From contig JAQXQU010000081.1 of NCBI GenBank assembly GCA_029101345.1, forward strand, positions 1-60,643: a DNA stretch of 60,643 nucleotides. Direction: 5' to 3'. Below, piece after piece: positions 54,629 through 60,643 of this stretch. The notes under the pieces were generated by a model, which ran no database searches, had not been told where the DNA came from, and saw only the letters and a list, made by a program, of their open reading frames with translations. The first letter of the stretch is position 1, and every line of letters begins with the position of its first letter. Position numbers and translations under genes: made by a program. Source of the stretch: Erysipelotrichaceae bacterium (GTDB lineage Bacteria; Bacillota_I; Bacilli_A; Erysipelotrichales; Erysipelotrichaceae).

Positions 54629-55702
54629 ATGAATAAGCTATTGGTTGCTAGAAATGAAATCGACGCCATTGATAAGGAACTTGCTAATCTTTATGAAAAG
54701 CGTATGCAAGCAGTTGTCAAGGTAGCACAGTACAAGAAGGAAAATGGCATGCCGATCTTTGATGAAAGCAGAGAAAAGGCTGTTATCGAAAAGAATACTG
54801 CTTATCTTTCTGATGATAGTCTCAAATCAGGCTATGTCAAAGTCTTAAACAAGCTGATGGAAGTCTCCAAGGACTACCAGCGCCAGGCAATATACGGAAA
54901 TTCCATTGGCTATCAAGGAATACTTGGGGCCTTCTCTCACATTGCTGCCAAAAGGCTTTTCCCTGATAGCAATCTTCTTTCATATTCTTCCTTTCGCCAT
55001 GTAGTTGATGCAATTGAAGAAGGCACTATTAATGCTGGCATTCTGCCTTTTGAAAATTCCTCAGCTGGTGAAGTAGGTGATGTCATGAATCTTTTATTCA
55101 AGCATCCTGATCTTTATATTGAAGCGTACTATGATTTGAAGGTTGAACAGAATCTGCTTGGCATCAAAGGAGCCAAAAGAGAAGATATTAAAAAGGTCTA
55201 TTCCCATCAGCAGGCTCTTGATCAAGCAAGCAATTATCTAAGACATCGGGGTTATGAGCTCATTTCCTATCCCAATACAGCCCTAGCTGCCAGCTTTGTT
55301 TCCGAAAAAGGTGATTTTGACAAGGCGGCAATAGCTTCTAAGGAAACTGCTGAAATTTATGGTCTGGATATTCTTGAAGATAACATTCAAAATATCGATT
55401 CCAATTATACGCGTTTTGTAATTGTCTCTAAGAAGCCTCATAACACTGGTGAAAAGACAGGCATCTTCTTTACTGTCAAGAATGAAGCCGGTTGTTTGGC
55501 TGAGATTATCAATATTATTTCTGCTTCAGGTTTTAATATGTCATCGCTTATCTCGCATGCGATGCCAGAACTTCCTTGGGAGTACTACTTCTTTGTTCAG
55601 CTTGATTGTTCATCTGATACTGATGATTATCGTCAGATGGCTCAAGAGCTCATAAAGCATTGTCAATCCTATCGTTGCATTGGTTCTTATTCCAAAATCT
55701 GA
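54629..55702 (+). CDS. pheA: Bifunctional chorismate mutase/prephenate dehydratase
   Basis: A 357-residue enzyme making phenylpyruvate from chorismate. The AroQ-type mutase (1-85) has RNEIDAIDKEL and the KENGMPIFDESRE helix. The dehydratase (about 90-270) has GILGAFSHIAAK, ILPFENSSAGEV and the catalytic NYTRFVIV. An ACT domain (about 275-355) follows, but its effector motif, normally GAL...ESRP, reads GCL...SHAMP here. It is the last gene of the nucleoside transporter transcript and lies directly before the aro promoter. Regulation by Phe may therefore differ from the norm. Confidence 0.93.
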   Translation: MNKLLVARNEIDAIDKELANLYEKRMQAVVKVAQYKKENGMPIFDESREKAVIEKNTAYLSDDSLKSGYVKVLNKLMEVSKDYQRQAIYGNSIGYQGILGAFSHIAAKRLFPDSNLLSYSSFRHVVDAIEEGTINAGILPFENSSAGEVGDVMNLLFKHPDLYIEAYYDLKVEQNLLGIKGAKREDIKKVYSHQQALDQASNYLRHRGYELISYPNTALAASFVSEKGDFDKAAIASKETAEIYGLDILEDNIQNIDSNYTRFVIVSKKPHNTGEKTGIFFTVKNEAGCLAEIINIISASGFNMSSLISHAMPELPWEYYFFVQLDCSSDTDDYRQMAQELIKHCQSYRCIGSYSKI

Positions 55703-55705
55703 TAT

Positions 55706-55734
55706 TGAAATGAAACAGCAAAAAGAATACAATG
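55706..55734 (+). promoter_or_regulatory. Promoter of the shikimate operon
   Basis: TTGAAA (55706-55711), 17-nt spacer, TACAAT (55729-55734). The start codon of the leader peptide (55741) is 6 nt after the -10 box, so the transcript should begin with that ATG. Confidence 0.75.
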
Positions 55735-55740
55735 TAAATA

Positions 55741-55800
55741 ATGAAAACAAAAATGTATTATTTTACAGTCTCTTATTATTATTCTTTCAATCATGATTGA
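55741..55800 (+). CDS. Tyr/Phe-rich attenuator leader peptide (19 residues)
   Basis: Codons from ATG 55741 to TGA 55798-55800 encode a 19-residue peptide with Tyr-Tyr-Phe at positions 6-8, Tyr-Tyr-Tyr at 12-14 and Phe at 16: seven aromatic residues of 19. Codons 9-10 are ACA GTC, which is RNA segment 1 of the attenuator that follows. It lies between a good promoter and a terminator in front of aroB. The arrangement matches ribosome-mediated attenuation known for pheA and other amino-acid operons. Translation would be leaderless. Confidence 0.8.
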   Translation: MKTKMYYFTVSYYYSFNHD

Positions 55801-55862
55801 AAATATTTTGACTGTTACAATGACATTTGCTTATTATGACAGTCTAAGGACTGTCATTTTTT
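55765..55862 (+). promoter_or_regulatory. Ribosome-mediated attenuator of the aro operon
   Basis: Segment 1 ACAGTC (55765-55770, inside the leader peptide), segment 2 GACTGT (55811-55816), segment 3 ACAGTC (55840-55845) and segment 4 GACTGT (55850-55855). The 3:4 pairing, extended to ATGACAGTC/GACTGTCAT with a TAAG loop and T-tail, is the terminator (55837-55862). The 1:2 and 2:3 pairings are mutually exclusive alternatives. A ribosome stalled on the Tyr/Phe codons would cover segment 1 and free segment 2 to pair with 3. Confidence 0.78.
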
Positions 55863-55874
55863 ACTGGAGGGCAT

Positions 55875-56873
55875 ATGAAAGTATTGCATGCTGATTTTGG
55901 AACTGATTCCTATGACATTTTCCTTGAACGAGGTTGCTTGCAAAAGGCAGGTGAGTATCTGAACCTTGATCGTAAGGTATTGGTTATTACAGATTCTGGT
56001 GTTCCTTCCGTCTATGCCAAAACGATCAGATCATTCTGCAAGGAAGGCTATATTTCAACTATCCCGGCTGGTGAGAAGTCCAAGAATTTTGAACAGTATT
56101 CCCATCTTTTGCATGACCTGGTTCGTTATGGCTTTTCAAGAAAGGATTGCATAGTTGCCTGCGGAGGTGGGGTTGTTGGTGATTTGGCTGGTTTTGTTGC
56201 TTCGACATATATGCGTGGCATTGACTTTTATAATGTTCCAACCACAACAATTGCCCAGACTGATTCTTCCATTGGCGGGAAATGTGCTATTGATTTTGAT
56301 GGCTATAAGAATATCATCGGTTCCTTCTATCAGCCAAAAGCTGTCCTTGTTGATATGGATACTTTCATGACCCAGTCAAGAAGAGCATTGGTTTCTGGTC
56401 TTGCGGAAGCGATTAAGACAGGATTGATTGGTGATCGTGAACTCTTCGAAATCTTTGAAAGGGGAGAAGCCTTTGACAAAATAGATGAAGTTGTCTATCG
56501 TTCATTGAAATTCAAACGTGATGTTATTGTGGAAGATCCCAAGGAAAAAGGCATCAGAGCAATTTTGAATTTTGGTCATACAATCGGTCATGCCATTGAA
56601 GCAGCAGCGGATTTTAAACTTTATCATGGTGAATGCGTAGGTATTGGCATGGTAAAGATTACTGACGATGAAGCTTTGAAAAATCGGATAATAAATGTAT
56701 TGAAGATGTATGATTTGCCAACAGATTTTGATTATGATAAGAGTAAGGCAATGGATGCCCTTAAACACGATAAGAAGGGCCAGGCTAAGAATACGAAGAT
56801 CATCAAAGTCAATGAAGTTGGAAAGGCGGAGATTGAAATAGTCAAGACAGAGAGTCTTAGACAGTATCTCTAG
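55875..56873 (+). CDS. aroB: 3-dehydroquinate synthase
   Basis: A 332-residue NAD- and metal-dependent enzyme converting DAHP to 3-dehydroquinate. The nucleotide-binding GGGVVGDLAGF (about 97-107), VPTTTIAQTDSSIGGK (about 118-133) and metal-ligand region NFGHTIGHAIE (about 232-242) are conserved. It is slightly shorter than the usual 350-360. GGAGG 4 nt before the ATG follows directly after the attenuator. First gene of the aro operon. Confidence 0.95.
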   Translation: MKVLHADFGTDSYDIFLERGCLQKAGEYLNLDRKVLVITDSGVPSVYAKTIRSFCKEGYISTIPAGEKSKNFEQYSHLLHDLVRYGFSRKDCIVACGGGVVGDLAGFVASTYMRGIDFYNVPTTTIAQTDSSIGGKCAIDFDGYKNIIGSFYQPKAVLVDMDTFMTQSRRALVSGLAEAIKTGLIGDRELFEIFERGEAFDKIDEVVYRSLKFKRDVIVEDPKEKGIRAILNFGHTIGHAIEAAADFKLYHGECVGIGMVKITDDEALKNRIINVLKMYDLPTDFDYDKSKAMDALKHDKKGQAKNTKIIKVNEVGKAEIEIVKTESLRQYL

Positions 56874-56882
56874 GGTGAATGG

Positions 56883-57977
56883 ATGAAAAATACAATTGGC
56901 GACAGTTTTGCAATTACAATCTTTGGCGAATCACATGGTGAATACATCGGCTGTGTCATTGATGGACTTGCAGCCGGCATCAAGCTTGACCTTGCAAAAA
57001 TCAATCATGATCTAACACTCAGAAGACCTGCTGGCGTCATTTCCACTTCCAGAATCGAAAATGATGATTTCAAGATCATTTCTGGCTATTTCAATGGCTA
57101 TACGACCGGTTCAGCTCTGACTATTATCATTCCCAATGCCAATACAAGATCCAAGGATTATGAATCATTGAAATATCTGCCTCGTCCATCCCATGCTGAT
57201 TATGCCGCTAATATGAAATATCATGGCTATCAGGATTATCGTGGTGGTGGCCATTTCTCTGGACGCTTAACAGCGGCTTTGGTTATTGCAGGTTCAATTG
57301 CCAAGCAGATTCTTGAAAATCACAATATTCTGGTTGGATCACATATCCAAAGGTTAGCTGGCATTGATGATGAACTTTTTGCCAATAATCCTATTGAACA
57401 GATAAAAGCCATGAATGATAAGCTTTTTGCGGTTCTTGATAATAACAAGGGTGACTTGATGGTTGAAGCAATAAAGAATGCGGCAGCTAATAAGGATTCT
57501 GTCGGCGGGATTATTGAAACAGCTGTTGTTGGCATGCCAGAAGGCATTGGCGAACCATGGTTTGATACAGTTGAAGGCATCTTGGGGAAGATGATCTTCT
57601 CAGTACCGGCTGTCAAAGGCATTGAATTTGGAGCTGGTTTCAAGATGTCGGATCTTAAAGGATCAGAGGCCAATGATCCTTTTGCCTATGAACACGAAAA
57701 AGTCATTACTTTGAGCAATAATTCTGGTGGCATCAATGGTGGTATTACCAATGGCATGCCAATAATCATCCATACTGCAATCAAGCCAACGGCTTCCATC
57801 GCCAAGCCTCAGAAGACAGTGAATCTTATAAAGAAGGAAAATGCCATTCTTGAAATATCTGGACGTCATGATCCGGCTATTGTCCATCGGGCAAGAATTG
57901 TCATTGATTCAGTAGTAGCTATTGGCCTTGTTGATATATGTTCCATGCATTATGGTACTGATTGGCAAAGGGGTTAG
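56883..57977 (+). CDS. aroC: Chorismate synthase
   Basis: A 364-residue FMN-dependent enzyme eliminating phosphate from EPSP to give chorismate. GESHGEYIGCVIDG near residues 13-26, RPSHADYAANMKY near 100-112 and the RGGGHFSGR signature (about 119-127) are intact, as is the C-terminal GRHDPAIVHRA. Length is typical. The next gene starts one base after the stop. EPSP synthase (aroA), which makes its substrate, is not in the window. Confidence 0.96.
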   Translation: MKNTIGDSFAITIFGESHGEYIGCVIDGLAAGIKLDLAKINHDLTLRRPAGVISTSRIENDDFKIISGYFNGYTTGSALTIIIPNANTRSKDYESLKYLPRPSHADYAANMKYHGYQDYRGGGHFSGRLTAALVIAGSIAKQILENHNILVGSHIQRLAGIDDELFANNPIEQIKAMNDKLFAVLDNNKGDLMVEAIKNAAANKDSVGGIIETAVVGMPEGIGEPWFDTVEGILGKMIFSVPAVKGIEFGAGFKMSDLKGSEANDPFAYEHEKVITLSNNSGGINGGITNGMPIIIHTAIKPTASIAKPQKTVNLIKKENAILEISGRHDPAIVHRARIVIDSVVAIGLVDICSMHYGTDWQRG

Positions 57978-57978
57978 G

Positions 57979-59193
57979 ATGGAGTACGGACTGATTGGTG
58001 AACATCTTGGTCATTCCTTCTCCAAGGAAATCCATGAAATGCTTGGCGGCTACCAATATGAATTAAAAGAGATTCAACCATGTGATGTTGAATCTTTTAT
58101 GCGTAGAAGGGAATTCAAGGCCATTAATGTGACAATTCCTTATAAGCAGACAGTCATGGCATTTCTGGATGAAATAGACGAAAAAGCCAAGGCCATTGGT
58201 GCTGTAAATACTATTGTCAATAATAACGGGCGTTTAATTGGCTATAACAGTGATTATGATGGCATTTTGCACTTGCTAAAAAGAAATGGCATCAATGCAG
58301 AAGGGATGAATGTACTTCTGCTGGGAACTGGCGGTACTTCCCATACAGCTGAAGCAGTCTTTGATGATTTGGGCGCAAAAAGAATTACCAAGGTCTCAAG
58401 ATCCAAGAAGGAGATGGCAATCAGTTATAAAGATGCACTAGCACTAAAGGATACTGATCTCATCTTCAATTGCACACCATGTGGCATGTTTCCGGCAAAT
58501 GATGGATGCCCAATATCCATCGAATCCTTTGATAATCTTAAAGCGGTATTTGATGCCATCTATAATCCCTTGAAAACAAGACTTGTTTTACAGGGGATGA
58601 CTAGGGGCATTATTGCCGATGGGGGACTATATATGCTGGTAGCCCAAGCTGCTGTAGCTTGTGAAAAGTTCATAGGAAAAAGAATCAGTCAGAGCAAGAT
58701 CGAAGAGGTATTCAATTATTTATATAGAAAGAAGCGAAATATCGTCCTGATTGGCATGCCAGGTTCAGGCAAGACAACATTGGGCAAGCTTTTAGGTAAG
58801 GAAAACTTCATCGATAGCGATTTTGAGCTTTCCAAAAGAATTGGCAGTATTGATTCCTTTATCATTAACAATGATGAACATCTGTTCAGGGATGAGGAAA
58901 GTGCTGTTATCAGGGAAATTGCTAAGTTGAGCGGCAAGGTTATAGCTACCGGTGGCGGTGCAGTTCTAAGAAATGAGAACATTGAGAATCTTAAGCAAAA
59001 TGGCATTGTTGTCTATCTTAAAAGAGATCTTGACAAGCTTCAGATTGGCAATAACCGTCCTTTGTCAAATGACTATGAGTCATTATGCAAAAGATTTGAA
59101 GAACGTAAAGACATTTATATGAAATCTGCTGATATTGTTGTTGAGAATAATGGCAGTATTGAAGATTGTCTGAAGGAGTTGATGAAACTATGA
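57979..59193 (+). CDS. aroE/aroK: Fused shikimate dehydrogenase-shikimate kinase (AroE-AroK)
   Basis: A 404-residue fusion. Residues about 1-245 are AroE: GHSFSKEIHEM, catalytic Lys in NVTIPYKQ (about 52), YNSDYDG, and NADP loop LGTGGTSHTA. Residues about 250-404 are shikimate kinase: P-loop IGMPGSGKTTLGK (about 257-269), a DSDFE acidic motif and the ATGGGAVLR loop, with the lid NNRPL. The two carry out consecutive-neighbour steps of the pathway. The canonical AroE NTD motif is NSD here. It starts at ATG 57979 behind AAAGGGG; the upstream frame is the overlapping aroC end. It overlaps aroQ by 4 nt. Confidence 0.92.
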   Translation: MEYGLIGEHLGHSFSKEIHEMLGGYQYELKEIQPCDVESFMRRREFKAINVTIPYKQTVMAFLDEIDEKAKAIGAVNTIVNNNGRLIGYNSDYDGILHLLKRNGINAEGMNVLLLGTGGTSHTAEAVFDDLGAKRITKVSRSKKEMAISYKDALALKDTDLIFNCTPCGMFPANDGCPISIESFDNLKAVFDAIYNPLKTRLVLQGMTRGIIADGGLYMLVAQAAVACEKFIGKRISQSKIEEVFNYLYRKKRNIVLIGMPGSGKTTLGKLLGKENFIDSDFELSKRIGSIDSFIINNDEHLFRDEESAVIREIAKLSGKVIATGGGAVLRNENIENLKQNGIVVYLKRDLDKLQIGNNRPLSNDYESLCKRFEERKDIYMKSADIVVENNGSIEDCLKELMKL

Positions 59194-59627
59194 AAATAAT
59201 GGTTATAAACGGTCCGAATATCAATATGCTTGGAATCAGGGAACCAGATGTCTATGGAAATGAAAACTATGAGGGGCTAGTAGAACTCATAAGAAACTAT
59301 TGCGAATCAAAGGGGCTTGCTGTTGATTTTGTTCAATCCAATCATGAAGGAGTCCTCATTGATGCAATCCAAAGAGCCTATTTTGATAAATATGACGGTA
59401 TTGTTTTCAATCCTGCTGCCTATACCCACACTTCTATCGCTTTGCTTGATGCCCTAAAGGCTGTAAAGATTCCTTGCGTAGAAGTACATATTTCTGATGT
59501 TGATAAACGGGAAGATTTTCGTAGACACTCCTATATTGCAAATGCCTGCATCAAGACCATCAAAGGACTTGGCTTTGCTGGATATTTAAGAGCAATTGAT
59601 GCATTAATGGAAAGCATAGGTGATTGA
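59190..59627 (+). CDS. aroQ: 3-dehydroquinate dehydratase, type II
   Basis: A 145-residue dodecameric-type dehydratase. INGPNINMLGIREPDVYG (about 5-22) with the catalytic Tyr, FNPAAYTHTS (about 75-84), and EVHISDVDKREDFRRHS (about 97-113) are the standard active-site motifs. It starts at ATG 59190, overlapping the aroEK stop. DAHP synthase follows after 2 nt. Confidence 0.95.
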   Translation: MKIMVINGPNINMLGIREPDVYGNENYEGLVELIRNYCESKGLAVDFVQSNHEGVLIDAIQRAYFDKYDGIVFNPAAYTHTSIALLDALKAVKIPCVEVHISDVDKREDFRRHSYIANACIKTIKGLGFAGYLRAIDALMESIGD

Positions 59628-59629
59628 TC

Positions 59630-60643
59630 ATGTTCATTTCCTTACGTAAGAATACACCGGAAAATGAAATCCAAAGAGTAATCGATTTTGCAAGAAGCAG
59701 GAATGTCGAAGTCAATCTTTTCAAAGGTGCGGATTATGTTGTCTTGGGATTATTAGGTGATACTTCTCATATCGAACCGGAAGAGATTAAGGTTTCGCCT
59801 TGGGTCATGGCTGTTCAAAGAGTCTCGGCTCCTTATAAGCTGGCTAATCGCTTGCTTCATCCTAATGACAGCATTATCGATGTCGGCGGCATTCGCATTG
59901 GTGCTGGTGAGCGTATTGCAATTATTGCCGGCCCAGCTACACTTGAAAGCAATGAACATGCTAAGGCGATGGCTCTTAGCATCAAGGGTGCTGGAGCCAG
60001 CATCTATAAAGGGGGTTGCTATAAAGCCAGGACTTCCCCATATTCATTCCAGGGATTGGGTGAAAATGGTCTTGATTATCTAAGTGCTGCTGGCAAGAAT
60101 CTGCAAATGCCTGTTGCTTCTGAATTGCAGGATTCTGAACAGATTGAACTGTTTAATCAGAAAGTTGATCTGATTATCATCAATTCTGGCAATATGTTCA
60201 ATTTCTCACTATTGAAGAAGCTAGGACAGAAGACAAACAAGCCCATTCTTCTGAAAAGGAGCCAATCGGCTACAATTGATGAATGGCTGATGTCAGCTGA
60301 ATATCTGATGGCCAATGGCAATCCAAATGTCATATTATGCGAAAGAGGCGTCAAATCCTTTGATCGATACCATAAAGCCAGCATTGATATGGGTGTTGTT
60401 GCTGCCTTGAAACAAAGGACTCATTTGCCGGTTGTCATTGATCCTAGTCATTCAACCGGTGACTGGCGACTTGTTGAAAGCGTCTTTTTAGCAGGCATTG
60501 CTGCTGGCGCTGATGGCATGATCATTGATGTCCACAATGATCCTCAGCATGCCTTGTCAGATGCATCATTAAGCTTATATTCAGACCAGTTGCAAACCCT
60601 GATTGAAAAGGGCGATAAGATGGCACGGGTCTTGGGCAGGTCC
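59630..60643 (+). CDS. aroF: DAHP synthase (type I-beta), 3' end cut by window, divergent metal ligands
   Basis: The frame is open from ATG 59630 to the window edge (338 codons), close to full family length. An N-terminal regulatory ferredoxin-like domain (1-70) precedes the DAHP/KDO8P synthase barrel with KGGCYKARTSPYSFQGLG, LKRSQSAT and DPSHSTG. It catalyses the first shikimate step from PEP and erythrose-4-phosphate. The usual GPCSVES reads GPATLES, so the metal-ligand Cys is Ala, and the usual VEVH Glu is Asp (IDVH). His of DPSH and Asp of ALSD remain. Last visible gene of the aro operon. Confidence 0.92.
   Translation, partial: MFISLRKNTPENEIQRVIDFARSRNVEVNLFKGADYVVLGLLGDTSHIEPEEIKVSPWVMAVQRVSAPYKLANRLLHPNDSIIDVGGIRIGAGERIAIIAGPATLESNEHAKAMALSIKGAGASIYKGGCYKARTSPYSFQGLGENGLDYLSAAGKNLQMPVASELQDSEQIELFNQKVDLIIINSGNMFNFSLLKKLGQKTNKPILLKRSQSATIDEWLMSAEYLMANGNPNVILCERGVKSFDRYHKASIDMGVVAALKQRTHLPVVIDPSHSTGDWRLVESVFLAGIAAGADGMIIDVHNDPQHALSDASLSLYSDQLQTLIEKGDKMARVLGRS

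Follow-up and report, generated by a model that had tools for sequence, protein, structure and literature searches.

How the operon aroB-aroC-aroE/K-aroQ-aroF is controlled from the interval that separates it from pheA is the question raised by this locus, which lies within a 60,643-nt stretch of DNA from an Erysipelotrichaceae bacterium (the window). A sequence-only reading had proposed a ribosome-mediated attenuator that responds to Tyr and Phe, and this proposal is supported by the anatomy of the locus, its folding energies, a leader of the same design in the genus (genome G008), and aromatic leaders in 71 genomes from 25 genera. As judged from these sequence features, the element is very probably a ribosome-mediated transcription attenuator that would sense charged tRNA-Tyr and tRNA-Phe and control the operon, the genes of which make the amino acids for which the leader codes, as is expected of an attenuator.

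Classical ribosome-mediated attenuators are the trp, pheA, and his leaders of Proteobacteria. The element in the window has in common with these a leader peptide in which the product amino acids abound, four alternating segments, and a U-tailed terminator before the first gene, but it differs in serving the common pathway from aroB onward, in apparently reading two amino acids, in having an apparently leaderless ORF, in its Bacillota host, and in not matching the Rfam leader models. It is of the classical four-segment form and mechanistically ordinary, whereas the family that stands behind it is broader and less so.

Promoter, Leader ORF, and Gene Order

The promoter, the Tyr/Phe ORF, the four segments, and the U-tailed hairpin had all been read from this DNA previously, and all are present at the positions given in Table 1. 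Transcription is predicted to start at approximately 55740–55741, at or beside the leader ATG, which lies 7 nt downstream of the -10 hexamer, and the ORF carries five Tyr and two Phe codons in YYF, YYY, and F clusters. The T-run that follows the terminator stem ends 12 nt before aroB, rather than the 15 nt previously given for the hairpin. No other ORF with an amino acid run preceding a terminator was convincing in a scan of the window.

Table 1. Positions of the leader features and neighboring genes in the window.
Feature	Position	Strand	Remarks
pheA, chorismate mutase + prephenate dehydratase	54629–55702	+	Upstream of the putative attenuator; Pfam
Promoter TTGAAA-N17-TACAAT	55705–55733	+	Between pheA and aroB; 10/12 consensus matches; -35 TTGAAA at 55705–55710, spacer 17 nt, -10 TACAAT at 55728–55733
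Leader ORF MKTKMYYFTVSYYYSFNHD, then stop	55741–55800	+	19 codons + TGA (55798–55800); apparently leaderless
Regulatory codon block 1, TAT TAT TTT (Y6 Y7 F8)	55756–55764	+	
Segment 1, ACAGTC	55765–55770	+	Codons 9–10, between both aromatic blocks
Regulatory codon block 2, TAT TAT TAT (Y12–Y14)	55774–55782	+	F16 at 55786–55788
Perfect palindrome TTTCAATCATGATTGAAA	55785–55802	+	Surrounds the stop codon; hairpin within the 1:2 loop
Segment 2, GACTGT	55810–55815	+	Partner of 1 or 3; begins 10 nt past the stop codon
Segment 3, ATGACAGTC	55836–55844	+	Terminator 5' arm and antiterminator 3' arm; ACAGTC at 55839–55844
Segment 4, GACTGTCAT, with U tail	55849–55862	+	Predicted intrinsic terminator 3:4; GACTGT at 55849–55854; stem 55836–55857, 9 bp, loop TAAG; T-run ends at 55862
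aroB, 3-dehydroquinate synthase	55875–56873	+	Predicted first regulated gene; ATG at 55875; Pfam DHQ_synthase, DHQS_C
aroC, chorismate synthase	56883–57977	+	Pfam
aroE-aroK fusion, shikimate dehydrogenase + shikimate kinase	57979–59193	+	Pfam
aroQ, type II dehydroquinase	59187–59627	+	Pfam
aroF, DAHP synthase	59624–60643	+	Extends beyond the window end; Pfam

A second promoter-like match (TTGACT-N18-TATTAT, 55808–55837) lies inside the leader; it is a pattern match only, and transcription from it would begin in the terminator region, bypassing the attenuator. RNA reading through from pheA has no obvious Shine-Dalgarno sequence at the leader ATG and should therefore fold into 1:2 and 3:4 and terminate, and the element at 55703–55862 may also insulate aroB from pheA in this way.

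Alternating RNA Segments

The pairings are more extensive than the 6 nt at which the segments had previously been set. The 3:4 stem comprises 9 bp and has an energy of -12.6 kcal/mol in isolation, the 2:3 antiterminator prolongs its 6-mer by a G-U pair and one mismatch (-11.2 kcal/mol), and 1:2 adds to its 6 bp the hairpin that forms at the stop codon within its loop (-10.6 kcal/mol). As expected of an attenuator, 1:2 and 2:3 are mutually exclusive. At minimum free energy the terminated transcript adopts 1:2 together with 3:4 (-27.9 kcal/mol, z = -3.86), and none of 200 shuffled sequences equaled this value. Given the terminator, a correctly placed segment 2 and segment 1 arose in 0.005% of dinucleotide shuffles (1/20,000), and in 0.24% when the ORF was codon-shuffled.

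Ribosome Position and the Proposed Switch

Transcription would begin at or next to the leader ATG, and a ribosome would translate the 19-codon leader behind the RNA polymerase. With Tyr or Phe scarce, this ribosome would stall at Y6–F8 or at Y12–F16, and because both positions cover segment 1, segment 2 is proposed to pair with segment 3, pre-empting the 3:4 terminator and allowing the operon to be transcribed. With Tyr and Phe plentiful, the ribosome would reach the stop codon and depart, so that either 1:2 forms or the start of segment 2 is occluded by the ribosome; in both cases 3 would pair with 4, and transcription would stop near 55862.

These steps were modeled by masking the stretch that a ribosome would cover, from -17 to +11 relative to the A site. 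Masking at any of codons 2–19 abolishes 1:2 and leaves 2:3 at a probability of at least 0.99. The stop codon had been described as placed so that a terminating ribosome reaches the edge of segment 2, and such a ribosome does touch it, with its own edge at 55809–55810, but the contact does not by itself secure the OFF state: with the edge at +11 segment 2 is left unblocked, and shifting the assumed edge from +11 to +16 lowers 2:3 from 0.99 to 0.01. The OFF state in the window therefore hinges on the length of the footprint or on 1:2 forming after release. When no ribosome is present, 1:2 has a probability of 0.98 before segment 3 is synthesized, and 2:3 is favored at equilibrium (0.95) before segment 4 is synthesized. 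Once the full terminator has emerged, 3:4 dominates at equilibrium even with a stalled ribosome (0.89–0.99), which means that the switch must be kinetic and set by the order of synthesis, as in known attenuators.

A Leader of the Same Design in the Genus

A recognizable aroB was found in five of the 36 genomes of the genus that were searched, and one of these, G008, encodes an AroB that is 59% identical to that of the window. Its leader, MKNLNFKNYYYFYFFNKDNF followed by a stop codon, starts approximately 10 nt after a TATAAT hexamer, and the peptide has diverged from that of the window. Here 1:2 is a 15-bp pairing of AACTTCAAAAATTAT (codons 5–9) with ATAATTTTTGAGGTT, which overlaps the stop codon, 2:3 is formed by GGTTGC with GCAACC, and 3:4 by AAGCAACC with GGTTGCTT, followed by T's. 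The segments are entirely different in sequence from those of the window, yet 1:2, 2:3, and 3:4 alternate again, and this conservation of logic without conservation of sequence is the strongest single argument, drawn from sequence, that the element is functional. Masking a ribosome at the Y/F codons 9–15 of G008 leaves 2:3 at 0.85–1.00 and masking it at the stop codon reduces 2:3 to 0.00, the stop-codon ribosome clearly blocking segment 2 in this case.

The aromatic leader is absent at the other three of the five congeneric aroB genes, and no further credible aromatic leader was found at pheA loci of the genus. G008 is the sole relative of the same design, and with only one such relative covariation is not countable helix by helix for the window form. 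Covariation had been put forward as a check on the four segments; in G008 the segments are rebuilt with new, mutually complementary sequences, and covariation is seen in the helices of the commonest RNA class in the family (class b, below).

Leaders Across the Family and Alternative Explanations

An aroB match was found in 137 of 273 genomes of the family (evidently Erysipelotrichaceae), and 132 upstream regions were examined. A Tyr/Phe-run leader ORF that survived inspection is present in 71 genomes representing 25 of 45 genera, and such a leader is absent from the other 61 of the 132 regions; a comparison of related aroB leaders, proposed previously as a check for conserved Tyr/Phe codons and segments, thus bears out the aromatic ORF in many relatives and, in G008, new but complementary segments, though not a leader at every aroB.

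Of the 426 codons in the block from -2 to -7 relative to the stop, 345 specify Tyr (203) or Phe (142), an exact proportion that is inflated because the ORFs were selected for aromatic content; TTR and TAR codons are nearly absent from these positions, and Trp accounts for 2 of 979 codons in the family leaders. The filling of the block by both residues across the relatives fits the sensing of both end products. It argues against the reading that attenuation is coupled to translation but answers a general slow-down of translation or a single amino acid, rather than Tyr and Phe as such, which is unlikely, even though the stall blocks of the window are Tyr-heavy (five Tyr codons to two Phe) and translation speed could be reported by ribosome position alone.

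The same survey bears on whether the ORF is translated at all. It could be a chance occurrence between a plain promoter, which alone would set expression, and a constitutive partial terminator, the hairpin serving to insulate aroB from pheA read-through. A terminator right behind a promoter can simply reduce expression, TAT and TTT codons arise easily in AT-rich DNA, and the ORF is missing from many aroB upstream regions, as noted above. However, when an aromatic ORF was strictly required to have five or more F/Y among its last 12 codons and its stop 60–160 nt before aroB, 61 of 131 regions had one. Dinucleotide shuffling (40 rounds) yielded 1.35 on average and never more than 3, the reverse strand yielded two, and the 127 stretches lying 300 nt farther upstream yielded none. 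A loose rule gave 73 matches against a mean of 4.0 in shuffles (about 3%), from which the ORF calls in G166 and G187 were dropped as false positives. Together with the fixed position of the aromatic block relative to the stop, and with alternating segments that are rebuilt in G008 and covary in class b relatives, these counts make a chance ORF very unlikely. Least probable of all, and to be held highly improbable, is a switch worked by a T-box, a metabolite riboswitch, or an RNA-binding protein stabilizing 2:3 in place of leader translation: the host genome has 16 T-box matches, nine of them above the curated cut-off, and T-boxes lie upstream of sister-family aro operons, but none lies upstream of the window aroB, the Rfam scan of the window returned three tRNAs only and no T-box or other regulatory element, no Rfam family matched the leader (at the gathering score or at a permissive threshold) or 16 related loci, and between the congeners sequence diverges while peptide composition and pairing logic are kept.

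The leader peptide had also been described as itself leaderless, and under the attenuator reading this trait is borne out in relatives: of 71 leaders, 14 have their best -10 hexamer exactly 6 nt ahead of the ATG and 21 have it no more than 9 nt ahead, which suggests a recurrent leaderless start, the related species not being independent and the start sites being predicted. A second mode at 21–24 nt would leave room for a Shine-Dalgarno sequence.

At two further loci (L033 and L034, in G234 and G233, respectively), a terminator (CGAACAGGTTATCCGTTCGG, then T's) and GCGCGGCTGATATCTGAAAGG are kept approximately 60–130 nt before aroB, with a weak aromatic ORF or none (MKWRYTYY and a stop codon in L034). 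These are possibly decaying copies of the leader.

Comparison With Known Systems

The sequence-only reading had considered a translation-coupled switch unusual for Bacillota. T-boxes, to which Bacillota usually resort, do precede the sister-family aro operon, but leader-peptide attenuation as a kind is already known in this phylum: His leaders replace T-boxes in bacilli (PMC2965389), and His-leader attenuators have been published for Erysipelotrichales, Peptostreptococcaceae, and the Bacillus cereus group (PMC9413887), making the window less exceptional than had been stated. These His leaders resemble the window in attenuating transcription through a leader peptide in Bacillota, even in the same order, and in having been exchanged for T-boxes, and differ in serving histidine genes with His codons, the window serving aromatic genes. 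The uORFC-13-1 motif of Acholeplasma aroF is a proposed Phe(/Tyr) uORF with a terminator before a shikimate pathway gene (PMC8632094); compared by its description, it differs in gene and lineage and in that its uORF is preceded by an RBS. Also similar to the window are two candidate uORFs containing F and Y that have been proposed in the vicinity of shikimate genes (PMC6429828). The attenuator leader peptide trpL of Sinorhizobium meliloti is encoded by an RNA that begins at its ATG (PMC7298713), and is thus leaderless like that of the window, but it concerns Trp and an alphaproteobacterium. No description of the aroB leader system was found in the open-access literature searched, although subscription papers lay outside the search and this absence is no proof; nor did this aroB family give an Rfam match.

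The T-box riboswitch (RF00230), which is absent from the window, senses tRNA directly, with no peptide. In the sister family, it was found upstream of aro genes at nine of the 20 aroB loci scanned (L006, L008, L013, L014, L016, L017, L020, L021, and L023), either upstream of aroB or of the gene preceding it. These results indicate that in much of a Bacillota family entry into aromatic amino acid synthesis is regulated by translating a Tyr/Phe peptide, whereas the orthologous genes of a sister family from that order have T-boxes before them. Nature thus offers a well-sampled example in which one regulatory logic takes the place of another. The results also provide several RNA architectures built upon one peptide signal, and a group of Bacillota leader peptides that are apparently leaderless.

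RNA Architectures Downstream of the Stop Codon

Several architectures can be distinguished downstream of the leader stop codon (the window type and classes a, b, and c), and most relatives seem to use a different switch, centered on the stop codon. In class b, the commonest (36 aligned leaders, alignment A2), covariation is seen in the terminator as well as in the competing helices upstream. For S2:S3 and the terminator, 96.4% of cells pair, against 28–38% when slid, and 9 of 19 pairs have changed on both sides. For S1:S2 and S3:S4, 88.7% pair against 37–51%, and both partners have changed in 6 of 16 pairs. The evidence for S3:S4 partly overlaps the terminator columns, although the loop pairs 71–124 and 72–123 by themselves supply 5 and 6 double changes. 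S0:S3, in which S0 is the last codons of the leader with the stop, pairs in 85% against 21–49%. Unconstrained RNAalifold predicts S2:S3 and the terminator. In A2 columns 10–17, 36–41, and 116–122, three GATAA-like strands, namely the leader end with the stop codon, S2, and the terminator loop, compete for one TTATC strand.

It is tentatively suggested that an undescribed system spans the Erysipelotrichaceae, with the window at its simple end, and that the commonest form of this system could be a mechanistically new, five-segment attenuator centered on the stop codon, though this is rather less than an even proposition. In such a model, S3 (GGCATTATCTAA) would be contested by S0 (the leader 3' end including the stop codon), S2, and S4 (the terminator loop), with S1 (GGGC) located just past the stop codon. 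To cover S0 and still leave S1 free, a ribosome would have to stall a few codons ahead of the stop, and this state alone would turn the operon ON; it would be OFF when the leader is untranslated and likewise when the ribosome sits at the stop. In the masking computations for class b, a stop-codon ribosome gave S2:S3 at 0.85 and S1:S2 at 0.00, with stalled positions intermediate, and the ensemble was split when no ribosome was present (S0:S3 0.40, S1:S2 0.39). For class a, RNAalifold predicts the terminator only, and for class c an outer stem, an inner stem, and the terminator; both classes seem to share a stem opening right past the stop, an inner hairpin whose 3' side is rich in U, and the terminator, as assigned by eye in class a beyond the terminator.

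Distribution and Other Genes

A covariance model built from class b (R1) was searched across the order with a cut-off of E ≤ 0.001, and identified 49 genomes, all within the family, with one site each that nearly always lies before aroB. This search of the order returned nothing outside the family, and the window form is not detected by R1. Weak R1 matches in G069, G150, G193, G243, and G276 were not accepted; that in G069 was inspected and has no leader.

Among the exceptions that were inspected, a class b leader in G232 (L277; C51, 11155–11263, minus strand; ...KGFYYFYYR, then stop) precedes aroF, encoding DAHP synthase, rather than aroB, and the gene next to this aroF is tyrA-like, as named by eye. 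Two clear Y/F leaders with weak R1 scores and a terminator, L278 (G170:C42:5962-6076; SFFFFFR, then stop) and L280 (G223:C91:2807-2922; NYYYFYYS, then stop), precede ABC_sub_bind (PF04392) transporter genes, which suggests that these transporters are importers of aromatic amino acids.
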